DNA of 34,225 nucleotides from Nanobdellota archaeon. Lineage in GTDB: Archaea; Nanobdellota; Nanobdellia; Woesearchaeales; JACPBV01. The stretch spans positions 1-34,225 of the forward strand of contig JAHJAV010000083.1 of the NCBI GenBank assembly GCA_018813685.1, given 5' to 3'. The translations under genes and the position numbers were made by a program. Below are positions 2,586 through 9,060 of the stretch, one piece after another (the first letter of the stretch is position 1; every line of letters begins with the position of its first letter). Under the pieces are notes generated by a model. The model did no database searches, was not told the DNA's origin, and saw only the letters and a list, made by a program, of their open reading frames with translations.

Positions 2586-3527
2586 ATGGATGTAAACAAA
2601 TTCATAGAAGAACAAATAAAGCAGATAAAGGAAAAAGTTGGCAATGATGTTGCGATTAATGCCCTTTCAGGCGGTGTTGACAGTTCTGTTGTTGCATTGT
2701 TGGCTCATAAGGCTTTAGGGGATAAGGTAAAAAACATATTTCTAAATACTGGTATGATGCGTGAGAATGAGCCTGAAACAATGAAGCAGAGATTTGCAGA
2801 AGTAGGGGTGAATGTAGAGATAAAAGATGTCTCAGACAGGTTCTTCAATGCACTGAAAGGAGAAGAAGATGGTGAAAACAAAAGAAAGATATTCAGAGAC
2901 ACTTTCTATAAAGTTCTAGGCGAAGCTGTAAAATCATCAGGGGCAAAATGCTTGCTGCAGGGAACAATAAAGCCAGATGTTGAAGAAACAAAAGCAGGAG
3001 TGAAAACCCAGCATAATATTTTATCTCAAATAGGCATTGATCCGGAGAAAGAATATGGCTTTAAAACAGTTGAGCCATTAATAGATTTGGTTAAATGGGA
3101 AGTAAGGGAAGTGGGAAAAGCTTTAGGATTGCCCCAATCAAGGTTCAATACAATGCCATTCTTAGGGCCAGGATTAATGGGCAGGGTTATTGGAGAAGTA
3201 ACAATAGAACGAGTTGCTATTGTAAGAAAAGCAAACAACATAGTAGAGGAAGAATTGATGCCATTAAAACCATTTCAATGTTTAGCTATTCTATTCAAAG
3301 ACATGGCAACAATGAAATCCGACGAGAATGCAAAAGGAAGGAACTATGGCAATATAATCGCAGTAAGATGCATTGAAAGCAAAGATGCAAGAACAGCTGA
3401 AATAACAGAAATCCCTTATCCGATTCTAAAGAAGATTGTACAAAGAATAACCACAGAGATTCCTGGAGTTATTAAAGTTGTTTATGATATTACACCAAAA
3501 CCGCCGAGCACTATAGAATATATTTGA
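2586..3527 (+). CDS. guaA (subunit B): GMP synthase, PP-loop ATPase subunit
   Basis: NALSGGVDSSVVALLAHKALG PP-loop, QGTIKPDVEE, C-terminal RITTEIPGVIKVVYDITPKPPSTIEYI; SD-like ggggtg upstream. Confidence 0.93.
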   Translation: MDVNKFIEEQIKQIKEKVGNDVAINALSGGVDSSVVALLAHKALGDKVKNIFLNTGMMRENEPETMKQRFAEVGVNVEIKDVSDRFFNALKGEEDGENKRKIFRDTFYKVLGEAVKSSGAKCLLQGTIKPDVEETKAGVKTQHNILSQIGIDPEKEYGFKTVEPLIDLVKWEVREVGKALGLPQSRFNTMPFLGPGLMGRVIGEVTIERVAIVRKANNIVEEELMPLKPFQCLAILFKDMATMKSDENAKGRNYGNIIAVRCIESKDARTAEITEIPYPILKKIVQRITTEIPGVIKVVYDITPKPPSTIEYI

Positions 3528-4608: not shown

Positions 4609-6147
4609 TCAGCTACAGCTTTCGTAGCTTCTTCCGCCTTTTTTGCCTGCTTTAAAATCCTTTAATGTTTTGCAGTACATTGATTTTCCGCATGGTGTAG
4701 GGTATTGCCCTGTTAAGCAGCCAAGACATAAATCCTCTTTGGGCAATCCTATGCTTTTGATAAGCCCTGGTATTGTCTGATAGATCAAAGAGTTTGCACC
4801 CATATCATCTGCTATCTTTTTGCAGAGCTCATCTGATGTCTTTTCAGGATCAATCTTATCTTCATATTGAGGAACTAATAATTCACTCACAGTTGACATG
4901 TCTATGCCATAGAAGCAGGGTGCTTTTATTGGAGGGCATGTAACTCTTACATGAACTTCTTTTGCTCCTCCAATCTCTTTTAAGAATGTTACGATTCTTT
5001 TTGAGGTTGTTCCTCTTACTATGCTGTCGTCAACCAATAATATCTTTTTGTCTTTTAGGATGTCTTTGACTAATGTGTATTTGTTCAGCACTTTGTCGTC
5101 TCTTTTGTTTCCTTCTATGAATGTTCTTCCTACAAAACGATTTCTTATCAATCCTTCCATTGAAGGCAGCCCTAGTTCATAGGCATAGGCGTCTCCTGCT
5201 GCTTTTGCTGTGTCTGGCACAGGAATCACTACATGCTCTTTTGAGATATTTTCTGTTTCAAGCTTTGCAAGCTCTTTGCCTAGATTTGTTCTTGTAACAT
5301 AGACTGATTTATCGTCTAAAACAGAGCTTACGTTTGCGAAATAGACCCATTCAAACATGCAATGCGCTTTTTTCTTTGTTTCTGCATATCTTTCTATCGA
5401 ATGACTTCCGTTTTTTACTGAGATTATGTGGCCTGGCTCCAGTGATTTGAAATCATACAACCCTATATTGGCTAGAGCATTGCTTTCTGAGGCTATAAAG
5501 ACATTTCCGTCTTTAACTGCATAGCTTAAGGGCCTTATTCCTAATGGATCTCTGCAAGCTATTAGATCCCCATAAGCGTTTATGTAAGCAATATTGTAAG
5601 CACCGTCAAACTTTTTGCTTAAATTTCTGAATACATCAACTTCTTTTGGTTTTTTGCCACCTTTAAGCTGTCTTGCAAGGTAGTGCATTATGATTTCAGT
5701 ATCATTATTAAGGCTGAAGTGATATTCTGTTTTTTCAACAAGGGGCTTTTTCAATTCTTCAAAATTAACTAAGTTTCCATTGAAACAGAAGCTGAACCAT
5801 TTCCAGATCCTTCCGTGTTTTCTTTCAAATGGTTGTGCGTGTGATCTGTCATCTGCACCGCATGTTGCGTATCTTACATGGCCGATTCCTTTGGTTCCTG
5901 CATAGCGGTTGAATATCTCCATGCTTTTCTGTACATTGCTTGTCTTGAAAACTTCGTTTACGGTTCCAATATTTTTGTATGTGTTGATAAGCTGCGGCTT
6001 GTCTTTGTTATATGTAGTTATCCCAGCAGATAATTGGCCGCGGTTTTGAAGATTAAGGAGAAGCCTATAGAGGTAGAATAAAGCTTTTTTGTCATTCTTT
6101 AAAGATACTGCTGCTATGCCGCATTCATCATGGATTTCGTCCATCAA
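4609..6147 (-). CDS. purF: amidophosphoribosyltransferase
   Basis: Short propeptide then ECGIAAV, GHVRYATCG, FNGNLVN, VDDSIVRGTT, Fe-S-type Cys positions (HCMFEW, APCFYG, CLGC). Confidence 0.95.
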   Translation of the reverse strand: MMDEIHDECGIAAVSLKNDKKALFYLYRLLLNLQNRGQLSAGITTYNKDKPQLINTYKNIGTVNEVFKTSNVQKSMEIFNRYAGTKGIGHVRYATCGADDRSHAQPFERKHGRIWKWFSFCFNGNLVNFEELKKPLVEKTEYHFSLNNDTEIIMHYLARQLKGGKKPKEVDVFRNLSKKFDGAYNIAYINAYGDLIACRDPLGIRPLSYAVKDGNVFIASESNALANIGLYDFKSLEPGHIISVKNGSHSIERYAETKKKAHCMFEWVYFANVSSVLDDKSVYVTRTNLGKELAKLETENISKEHVVIPVPDTAKAAGDAYAYELGLPSMEGLIRNRFVGRTFIEGNKRDDKVLNKYTLVKDILKDKKILLVDDSIVRGTTSKRIVTFLKEIGGAKEVHVRVTCPPIKAPCFYGIDMSTVSELLVPQYEDKIDPEKTSDELCKKIADDMGANSLIYQTIPGLIKSIGLPKEDLCLGCLTGQYPTPCGKSMYCKTLKDFKAGKKGGRSYESCS

Positions 6148-6274
6148 GTCACCCCTTGTTTGTTATAATTAGACAGTTATTTATAAATCTTTGGGTCGAT
6201 TAATTATGCTTTCTAACTTCTGCATCTCAACAATCTTTATATACTTCTGGCTTTTGTTTTGTTTAGGGGAAATA

Positions 6275-7696
6275 ATGAGCGGAATTTTTGGCATAGTAAG
6301 CAATAGCAATTGTATTTCTACTTTATATTATGGTACAGATTATCACAGCCATCTTGGAACAGAGTATGGCGGGATTTCTATAATTGATGAAACTGGTAAG
6401 CCTGCCAAAAAGATACATAATATCTCAAATTCGCAGTTTAAGTCAAAGTTCTATGAAGGGAGTGATGTGGTAAAGAGCAATATGGGGATTGGAGTCATAT
6501 CTGATAAAGACCCTCAGCCTTTGAACTTTGAAAGCAGGTTTGGTGCTTTTGCAATATGCTGTGCAGGCCTGATTACAAATAAGCAAGAGCTTGTTCATGA
6601 GCTTATAAAAAAAGGAATCTCTTTTAGCGAGATATCTCATGGTGAGGTTAACACAACTGAGCTTATTGCGAACCTCATTAATCAAGGGGAATCTATTATC
6701 GAGGGTATTGAGAAGATGTATGAAAAAATCCATGGTTCTATATCTTTGCTTTTGCTGACTCCTTTAGGAATATATGCTGCAAGGGATAAAAACGGAGTTA
6801 CTCCTTTGGTCATTGGGGAAAAAGACAGCGAAGTTGCAATAGCAAGTGAAAGCTGCGCTTTTCCTAATCTTGGATTTAAATTAAAGAAGTTTATGGAGCC
6901 AGGAGAGATTCTTTTTATAAGTAAAAAAGGGATTGAGGCAAAAAAACCAGGGTGCTCTTCTAATAAGATATGCGCATTTTTATGGATTTATACAGGGTTT
7001 CCTGCTTCATCTTATGAAGGGATAAATGTAGAGACAGTGAGAGAGAACTGTGGAAAGTTCTTAGCTAAACGCGATAATGTTGAAGTTGATGTTGTAGGCG
7101 GAGTTCCTGATTCAGGAACAGCACATGCTATAGGTTATGCAATGGAATCAGGCAAGCCGTATAGGAGAGTGTTGTTTAAATATACTCCTGGTTATGGAAG
7201 AAGCTACACCCCCCCTTCGCAGGATGTGAGGGATAGGATTGCTTTGATGAAGTTGATAGCTAATGAGGGTGCTGTAAATGGTAATAGGATTGTTTTGTGT
7301 GATGATTCTATTGTTAGGGGAACTCAGCTTAAGAATTTTACAATAACTAAATTAAAGGACGCTGGTGTTAAAGAAACACATATCAGACCTGCTTGTCCGC
7401 CTTTGATGTTTCCGTGCATTTATAATTTATCTACTAGGAGCATTAATGAACTGGCTGCAAGGAGGGCTATAAGGGCTTTGGAAGGCAAGGATATGGACGA
7501 TGTTTCTGAGTATCTTGACCAAAATTCTGAGAAGTATAATAAGATGATCGATTGGATTGCAAAGGATTTAGGGGTTACTTCTTTGAGATATATGCTGCTG
7601 GATGATATGGTGCAGGCAATAGGGCTGCCTAAGGATAAGTTATGCACTTACTGCTGGACAGGAAAAGGGGTGCAGAAGAGCTTGAGTTCATTTTGA
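6275..7696 (+). CDS. PurF paralog with degenerate glutaminase domain
   Basis: Start MSGIFGIV (ATG 6275), RIVLCDDSIVRGTQ PRPP motif, GRSYTPPSQDVRDRIALMKL loop, Cys positions ICAF/FPCIYN/CTYC retained; glutaminase motifs substituted. Confidence 0.9.
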   Translation: MSGIFGIVSNSNCISTLYYGTDYHSHLGTEYGGISIIDETGKPAKKIHNISNSQFKSKFYEGSDVVKSNMGIGVISDKDPQPLNFESRFGAFAICCAGLITNKQELVHELIKKGISFSEISHGEVNTTELIANLINQGESIIEGIEKMYEKIHGSISLLLLTPLGIYAARDKNGVTPLVIGEKDSEVAIASESCAFPNLGFKLKKFMEPGEILFISKKGIEAKKPGCSSNKICAFLWIYTGFPASSYEGINVETVRENCGKFLAKRDNVEVDVVGGVPDSGTAHAIGYAMESGKPYRRVLFKYTPGYGRSYTPPSQDVRDRIALMKLIANEGAVNGNRIVLCDDSIVRGTQLKNFTITKLKDAGVKETHIRPACPPLMFPCIYNLSTRSINELAARRAIRALEGKDMDDVSEYLDQNSEKYNKMIDWIAKDLGVTSLRYMLLDDMVQAIGLPKDKLCTYCWTGKGVQKSLSSF

Positions 7697-7743: not shown

Positions 7744-9060
7744 GTGATTATCATGGTAAACATACTTTTAATCGGAAATGGTGCAAGAGAGCATGTTATT
7801 GCAGAAGCTATTGTTCTTAGTCCGCAAAAACCTAAGCTGTTTTCTTATATGAATTCTAATAATCCTGGTATTGCTAAACTTTCTGAATCTGTTCAGATAG
7901 GGAAGTATAATGAGCTTGATAAGATCAATGCTTTTGCACAGGCTAATGCTATTGATTTTGCATTTATAGGTCCTGAAGACCCTCTTAGCCAGGGTGTTGT
8001 TGACTCTCTTGAAGAAGTTGGAGTTAAATCAGTTGGCCCTAAGAAAGAGCTTGCTAAATTGGAGACATCTAAATCATTTACAAGGCTATTGATGAAGAAA
8101 TATTCTATATCTGGCTTGCCTGCTTTTAGGGTTTTTGAAAGCAAAGATGGTTTGAAAGAATATATTGATTCTATGGATGCTTTTGTAGTGAAGAAAGATG
8201 GTTTAGCTGGCGGCAAAGGTGTTTTGGTGCAAGGGGATCATTTTGAAACAAAAGGAGATGGATTTAGGATAGCTCTTGACATGATTGAAAACGGAGATGC
8301 TGTTGTAATAGAAGAGAAATTATTGGGGGAGGAGTTTAGTTTGATGAGTTTGACTGATGGGAAAAGTTTGTTTGATTTTCAGCCTGTGCAGGACCATAAG
8401 AGGGCTTTTGTAGGTGATAAAGGCCCTAATACAGGTGGCATGGGTTCATATTCAACTGGAAAGCTATTGCCTTTTATGACTGAAAAGGATTTATCTGATG
8501 CACGTATAATAACTGAGAAGGTTTTAGCTGCGCTTAAACAAGAGACCGGTCTTGATTATAAGGGGGTTATGTATGGCGGTTTTATGATAACTAAGAATGG
8601 TGTGAAGTTAATAGAGTATAATGCAAGGTTTGGAGATCCAGAGGTAATGAATGTGCTGCCTATATTGAAGAATGATTTTGTTGCTGTGTGCCAGGCTGTA
8701 ATTGATGGGACTCTTTCAGAGATTAAACCAGAGTTTTCATCTGAATCAACTGTTTGCAAATATGCTGTTCCAGAAGGCTATCCAGATAATCCTGTTGATG
8801 GTAAAAAGATATTTTTAGGGGAGGTTCCTAAGAATGTTAAAGTCTATTATGCGTCTGTTGATAAAAGAAACGATGGATTGTATATGTCCAAGTCAAGGGC
8901 TGTTGCTTTTGTTGGAATAGCTCCTACACTTGAAGAAGCAGAAGTGATTGCTGAGAATGGAGTGTGCTCTGCACAAGGGCATATCTTTCATAGAGAAGAT
9001 GTTGGAACTAAAGAATTGATAGATAAAAGGATAAAGCATATGGGGAAGTTAAGGTTTTGA
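7744..9060 (+). CDS. purD: phosphoribosylamine--glycine ligase
   Basis: NILLIGNGAREHVIAEA, FAFIGPEDPLSQGVVD, DHKRAFVGDKGPNTGGMGSYS, EYNARFGDPE. Confidence 0.95.
   Translation: MIIMVNILLIGNGAREHVIAEAIVLSPQKPKLFSYMNSNNPGIAKLSESVQIGKYNELDKINAFAQANAIDFAFIGPEDPLSQGVVDSLEEVGVKSVGPKKELAKLETSKSFTRLLMKKYSISGLPAFRVFESKDGLKEYIDSMDAFVVKKDGLAGGKGVLVQGDHFETKGDGFRIALDMIENGDAVVIEEKLLGEEFSLMSLTDGKSLFDFQPVQDHKRAFVGDKGPNTGGMGSYSTGKLLPFMTEKDLSDARIITEKVLAALKQETGLDYKGVMYGGFMITKNGVKLIEYNARFGDPEVMNVLPILKNDFVAVCQAVIDGTLSEIKPEFSSESTVCKYAVPEGYPDNPVDGKKIFLGEVPKNVKVYYASVDKRNDGLYMSKSRAVAFVGIAPTLEEAEVIAENGVCSAQGHIFHREDVGTKELIDKRIKHMGKLRF

Follow-up and report, generated by a model that had tools for sequence, protein, structure and literature searches.

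PurF, a textbook case of glutamine channeling, catalyzes the committed step of purine synthesis. The window, that is, the whole 34,225-nucleotide stretch of DNA from a Nanobdellota archaeon that was analyzed here, carries two divergent genes related to it. A canonical purF lies on the minus strand (4609..6147), and its product has a short propeptide followed by Cys (DECGIAAV). On the plus strand, a 473-amino-acid PurF homologue without a glutaminase site is encoded (6275..7696), here called PurF'-like. The locus raises the question of what a PurF without glutaminase does beside one that has it. A preliminary description of this DNA had proposed an ammonia-dependent or regulatory phosphoribosyltransferase (PRT), or a subunit of a hetero-oligomer with PurF.

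A PurF homologue with altered glutaminase motifs

The PurF'-like gene was defined by reading of the open reading frame, profile search, and an AF2 model. It extends from an ATG at 6275 to a stop at 7696, and its product begins with MSGIFGIV. The 127-bp intergenic region between the divergent genes (6148..6274) contains a putative TATA-like sequence, TTTATATA, at 6236-6243 and a gggg stretch at 6266-6269 just 5' of the ATG. An upstream start restoring an N-terminal Cys, one of two findings that would have overturned the preliminary description, was ruled out by reading the sequence 5' of 6275 and by the relatives of 72-80% identity to the window protein, which begin at the same Met. The match to PurF spans the whole protein, with B. 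subtilis PurF (1gph/1ao0) as the best hit (4e-61). The TIGR01134 profile scored 228 bits, below its curated cut-off of 350; the canonical neighbor, also identified by alignment, scored 341.9 bits against the same cut-off. The AF2 model (pLDDT 88, pTM 0.88, low in the flexible loop 305-314) had PurF structures as its top PDB matches, with TM scores of 0.82-0.85 to 1ao0, thereby predicting a two-domain PurF fold.

Residues were compared in an alignment of 88 relatives, 37 canonical PurF rows, and B. subtilis PurF (all features of the protein are given on the plus strand). Residues 1-225 (6275..6949) form a putative pseudo-glutaminase domain of the class II GATase fold, with Ser in place of Cys1 (PF13537 GATase_7, 55.5 bits, and alignment). 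The domain matched this fold family and lacked the Cys1 and supporting site of an active class II (Ntn) glutamine amidotransferase. Cys1 of B. subtilis PurF aligned with Ser2 of the window protein, R72-Y73-A74-T75 (GHVRYAT) was deleted, N102 (NGNLVN) was replaced by Ala97, and D127 of the DTE motif was replaced by Thr127, whereas the neighbor retained all four. The replacements previously read from the two genes (GHVRYATCG, FNGNLVN, and NNDTE of the neighbor against GIGVISDKDPQPL, CCAGLITN, and VNTTE) were borne out in this way. The site of the RYxT Q-loop deletion, GIGVISDKDPQPL, lies at 6485..6523, CCAGLITN in place of the oxyanion-hole HNGNLVN at 6557..6580, and EVNTTE in place of SSDTE, with Asp127 lost, at 6644..6661.

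The same changes were found across the family. The Cys1 position was Ser in 63% and Gly in 34% of relatives and Cys in 0 of 88, and the R72-T75 gap was present in 88 of 88. The B. subtilis N102 column was variable, with Asn still in 26%, and the D127 column was mostly Pro or Thr. Among the 37 canonical rows, the glutaminase residues were 97-100% conserved, A74 excepted (Ser/Ala/Pro). The scaffold of the glutaminase fold (G3, H26, G28, G98, N102, and E129 in the numbering of the window protein) was invariant in the 88 relatives, and conservation density in the first 40 residues equaled that of the PRT core. A signature, GTDYHSHLGT (residues 20-29, 6332..6361), replaces the canonical QHRGQE region; most of its positions were 97-100% conserved in the relatives and most were missing from canonical PurF. 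Judged from the alignment, the catalytic glutaminase motifs are gone and a glutaminase-fold domain is retained, which qualifies the earlier statement that all recognizable glutaminase motifs were lost.

The other part of that statement, that the PRPP motif and four Bacillus-type cluster Cys are kept, agreed with the alignment. The PRPP-binding loop LCDDSIVRGTQ occupies residues 341-351 (7295..7327); D346-S347-I348-V349-R350-G351-T352 were 98-100% conserved in the 88 relatives, as were the PRT residues D282, S283, R311, and K328. Of these, D282, R311, K328, D346, S347, R350, G351, and T352 showed 100% conservation. Cys233 (6971..6973) aligned with B. subtilis C236 and Cys381 (7415..7417) with C382, each being Cys in 98% of relatives, and Cys457 and Cys460 (CTYC, 7643..7654) were Cys in 97-100%. 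All four cluster Cys of a Bacillus-type [4Fe-4S] PurF are present, and a cluster is predicted. Since Cys1 and RYxT are absent family-wide while the PRT residues are almost invariant, the glutaminase loss is not attributable to chance. Substrate-loop residues consistently unlike those of PurF were also found in the 88 relatives, with a KYTP insertion and GTQL instead of GTTS. Overall, B. subtilis PurF shares with the window protein the two-domain fold, the PRPP loop, and the four Fe-S Cys (31% identity in structural alignment), but the window protein lacks Cys1, the RYxT Q-loop, Asn102, and Asp127 and has the conserved GTDYHSHLGT.

Range of the family and its gene neighborhoods

Relatives were found by scanning genome contigs with two peptide patterns, and at least 558 were confirmed. 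Among the matches listed, Thermoplasmata relatives had 72-80% identity to the window protein, and the closest relative beyond the organism's own family was from Thermoplasmatales (80%); further hosts among these matches were Omnitrophota, Planctomycetota, Elusimicrobia, Syntrophales and other Desulfobacterota, Aminicenantes, Acidobacteria, Spirochaetes, Gemmatimonadota, Anaerolineae, Myxococcota, and Lokiarchaeia. The family also occurs in Clostridia and Bacteroidota, gut Bacteroides included. Within Nanobdellota it is rare, with matches at E ≤ 1e-80 in 7 of 279 genomes. Cultured members are Peptoclostridium acidaminophilum (WP_025436666.1), Bacteroides finegoldii (WP_007756110.1), and Parabacteroides distasonis (WP_009018525.1); the first two have 45-48% identity over full length and are annotated as glutamine-dependent amidophosphoribosyltransferases despite the absent glutaminase site.

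In a tree built by a quick method, the PurF'-like family was split from canonical PurF by a branch with a support of 99, and the window protein grouped with those of G003, Thermoplasmatales, and G240. Between the window protein and that of G003, pN was 0.122 for the pseudo-glutaminase half and 0.115 for the PRT half; synonymous sites were saturated, which precluded a dN/dS estimate. A locally arisen, decaying duplicate was rejected on the basis of the separate clade, the conservation across phyla, and the equal constraint on both domains, and the earlier term paralog is misleading insofar as it suggests a local copy that lost its motifs. By these comparisons, the Cys-less PurF-like proteins are a real, old, and widespread family of probable enzymes and not a local oddity.

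The concept of a Cys-less, ammonia-dependent PurF' is already known. Brown et al. (2011) described such proteins in Crenarchaeota, encoded in the vicinity of purF and of further purine genes, and proposed a role as ammonia-dependent aminotransferases (PMC3261824). The window protein likewise has no N-terminal Cys, a true PurF in the genome, and a gene near purF and purine genes. Compared by description and not in one tree, PurF' was reported in Crenarchaeota only, with Ala or Val frequent at the Cys position (PMC3261824), whereas the window family has Ser or Gly, the Q-loop deletion, and a bacterial-archaeal range. Mlab_0150 of Methanocorpusculum labreanum also has Ser for the nucleophile Cys and lies beside a normal PurF, but it was described as having arisen recently by duplication of the purF in the same genome (PMC3261824), whereas the window family is an old separate clade. 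The range of the family, the Q-loop deletion, the GTDYHSHLGT signature, and natural replacement of purF were not found in the searchable literature, nor were PurF-like or pseudoenzyme forms beyond those of PMC3261824.

Judged by sequence, the gene in the window is surrounded by a functional purine pathway. Downstream lies purD (7756..9060, plus strand; TIGR00877, 425 bits, cut-off 288), encoding phosphoribosylamine-glycine ligase, the user of the PurF product. Profile search also placed purP (112-1215), a second purP-like gene (1255-2562), and a guaA ATPase subunit gene (2586-3527) on the plus strand; the second purP-like protein, adjoining the normal purP, has a Lys-rich N-terminal extension. 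The host genome (1.56 Mb, 94% complete) contains purD, purM, purL, purB, purC, purE, a purH-like frame, and the two purP-like genes. It also encodes a third PurF-like protein (L263:7974-9551, contig C37, 525 amino acids, MCGIIGG...) with largely present glutaminase motifs and a PRPP loop reading TEDTIVRGDT; it is approximately the converse of the PurF'-like protein.

Canonical PurF was also found in about 40 of 50 host genomes (37 exceeding the cut-off, the others with partial or slightly weaker matches); in the compared operons it was called with the reference purFcan_w and N-terminal sequences. The two genes adjoin divergently in the window and in G003, which keeps the window order purF'-purF-purD. 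They are also neighbors in Lokiarchaeia (L087, L096), in Planctomycetota near purM (L047, L050), and in Anaerolineae (L106). Omnitrophota L242-L244 have the operon purB-purL-LOG-purQ-purF'-purF-purM-purD-purE, with the order varying between purQ-purF'-purF-purM and purQ-purF-purF'-purM. A fecal Clostridia-like contig (L282, MT836108) reads purE-purC-purF'-purF-purM-purN, and G240, of the same taxonomic order as the window's organism, has purL-purQ-purM-purE-purC-purB-purA-purH-purF'-purD. In many genomes the two genes lie far apart; where linkage is present, the linked genes are mostly purine genes. In Bacteroidota and Peptoclostridium, pepT and not a purine gene adjoins purF', and a solitary purF' lies beside carB/DUF1846 in Omnitrophota L237 and L245.

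Several other features of these contigs were recorded. A LOG-type gene (lysine_decarbox, PF03641) lies regularly between purL and purQ in Omnitrophota purine operons (L186:7696-8433, L227-L229, L234, L235, L239, and L242-L244). In Omnitrophota L237 (4493-6028) and L245, a gene for a DUF1846 protein separates carB from the PurF'-like gene, and L195 has another DUF1846 gene near purM-region genes. The order purF' then pepT was seen in Peptoclostridium and three Bacteroidales (L279-L281, L283), a linkage spanning two phyla, with gcvT next in Bacteroidales. MT836108 is deposited as "Bacteriophage sp.", and its content is that of a bacterial purine operon contig. The complete operon of G240 includes a peptidase S51-type protein gene (L191:5479-6141). 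The canonical purF of G240 (L199:3272-4297) breaks off at about 4222, immediately ahead of the PRPP loop. A split enzyme was considered and rejected, since the break also cuts an antisense gene, the missing half was not found as a copy elsewhere, and relatives in G240's family are without purF'; rearrangement or a chimeric contig is likelier.

Genomes in which canonical purF was not found and the probable role of PurF'

Among 139 Omnitrophota, 51 carried both genes, 14 purF' only, 69 purF only, and 5 neither (Fisher p = 0.014, uncorrected for phylogeny), and purM and purD were present in 11 of the 14 with purF' only. Three Omnitrophota with purM and purD carry neither PurF form, so the absence calls are noisy; gaps in the MAGs and masked stretches, as in G408, weaken them further. 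The absences in G408 were voided because its giant 24,675-amino-acid frame with a PurL match was a masked run of N and not a gene, and G333, labeled a chromosome, was dismissed as proof of absence for its internal 100-N scaffold gaps. In three MAGs (G418, on a 240-kb contig, G391, and G335), an intact operon holds purF' alone where relatives carry purF'-purF, and canonical purF was not found elsewhere in them. In G373, other genes fill the site after guaA where G365 has purF. Presence of canonical purF changes at least 3 times on the purF' tree. Conversely, purM and purL were not found in G008 (99% complete), which has purF' and purD, and none of purD, purM, and purL was found in G415 and G320, which have purF'; in such genomes purF' may serve some additional purpose or be retained for other reasons.

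The reading that we favor, by a modest degree, is that purF' encodes a PRPP amidotransferase that uses NH3 and acts in purine synthesis alongside or in place of PurF. It is based on the family-wide loss of glutaminase residues with strict conservation of the PRT and Fe-S residues, from the recurrent linkage to purine genes and purF, and from the operons with purF' alone at the purF position. E. coli PurF with Cys1 changed to Ser or Ala, reported to retain NH3-dependent activity (PMC3261824), is a precedent. A pure purine role is weakened by the genomes G008, G415, and G320 and by the pepT neighbors in Bacteroidota and Peptoclostridium. The earlier proposal of an ammonia-dependent or regulatory PRT, or of a subunit beside intact PurF, fits the residue pattern, the recurrent pairing with canonical purF, and the purine operons; ammonia dependence was not a new idea.

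A hetero-oligomeric or regulatory subunit, which would join canonical PurF and take its glutamine-derived NH3 or sense PRPP or nucleotides to tune it, ranks second and is rather doubtful. The tandem or divergent pairing in Omnitrophota, Planctomycetota, Anaerolineae, Lokiarchaeia, Clostridia-like bacteria, and the window's archaea would suit such a partner, as would a pseudo-glutaminase domain as constrained as the PRT domain, but the purF'-only operons of G418, G391, and G335 and the wide separation of the genes in many genomes argue against it. It is unlikely that the enzyme works outside purine synthesis, in some other PRPP-dependent reaction with another amine or nucleophile for NH3. Altered but strictly conserved residues, located within the flexible loop and C-terminal to the PRPP loop, leave room for such a nucleophile, and the genomes without purM and purL and the pepT and gcvT neighbors in Bacteroidota point the same way; however, purine genes predominate where linkage exists, and purF' takes the purF position in intact operons. 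Ntn hydrolases can use Ser, and MetAP would expose Ser2, which matches the Ser of most relatives, yet a residual hydrolase of this kind is very improbable given Gly in about a third of them, the deletion of the Arg/Tyr Q-loop in all, and the loss of Asp127. The loss of every glutaminase residue, taken alone, would be compatible with a decaying pseudogene or an artefact of a wrong start or sequencing error, a reading made practically negligible by the open frame and same start in every relative kept in the analysis, the strict conservation across phyla, and the lack of excess amino-acid change.

Implications for the first step of purine synthesis

If the favored NH3-using role is right, the PurF'-like enzyme would make phosphoribosylamine for PurD from PRPP and NH3 without glutamine hydrolysis, which would give the first purine step a second branch, fed by ammonia, beside canonical PurF. 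The enzyme would be competent with NH3, and the NH3 could be free ammonium or ammonia freed by the neighboring PurF. In wild-type enzymes, entry of free NH3 has been proposed to occur via the glutamine side (PMC12017579), and the Q-loop deletion could open an entry path there. The conserved pseudo-glutaminase domain presumably retains some role. More tentatively, we consider a two-protein PurF, in which glutaminase-dead synthase subunits of archaea and many bacterial phyla might assemble with canonical PurF and take its released ammonia, or cells might switch the first purine step between glutamine and ammonium, and the ammonia-only form might have replaced PurF altogether in some lineages.

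The Bacteroides and Peptoclostridium members make the PurF' question of 2011 testable in cultured strains. If the ammonia-using role is true, many records named amidophosphoribosyltransferase would be wrong on the nitrogen donor, and part of the microbial world would supply the first step of purine synthesis with ammonia.
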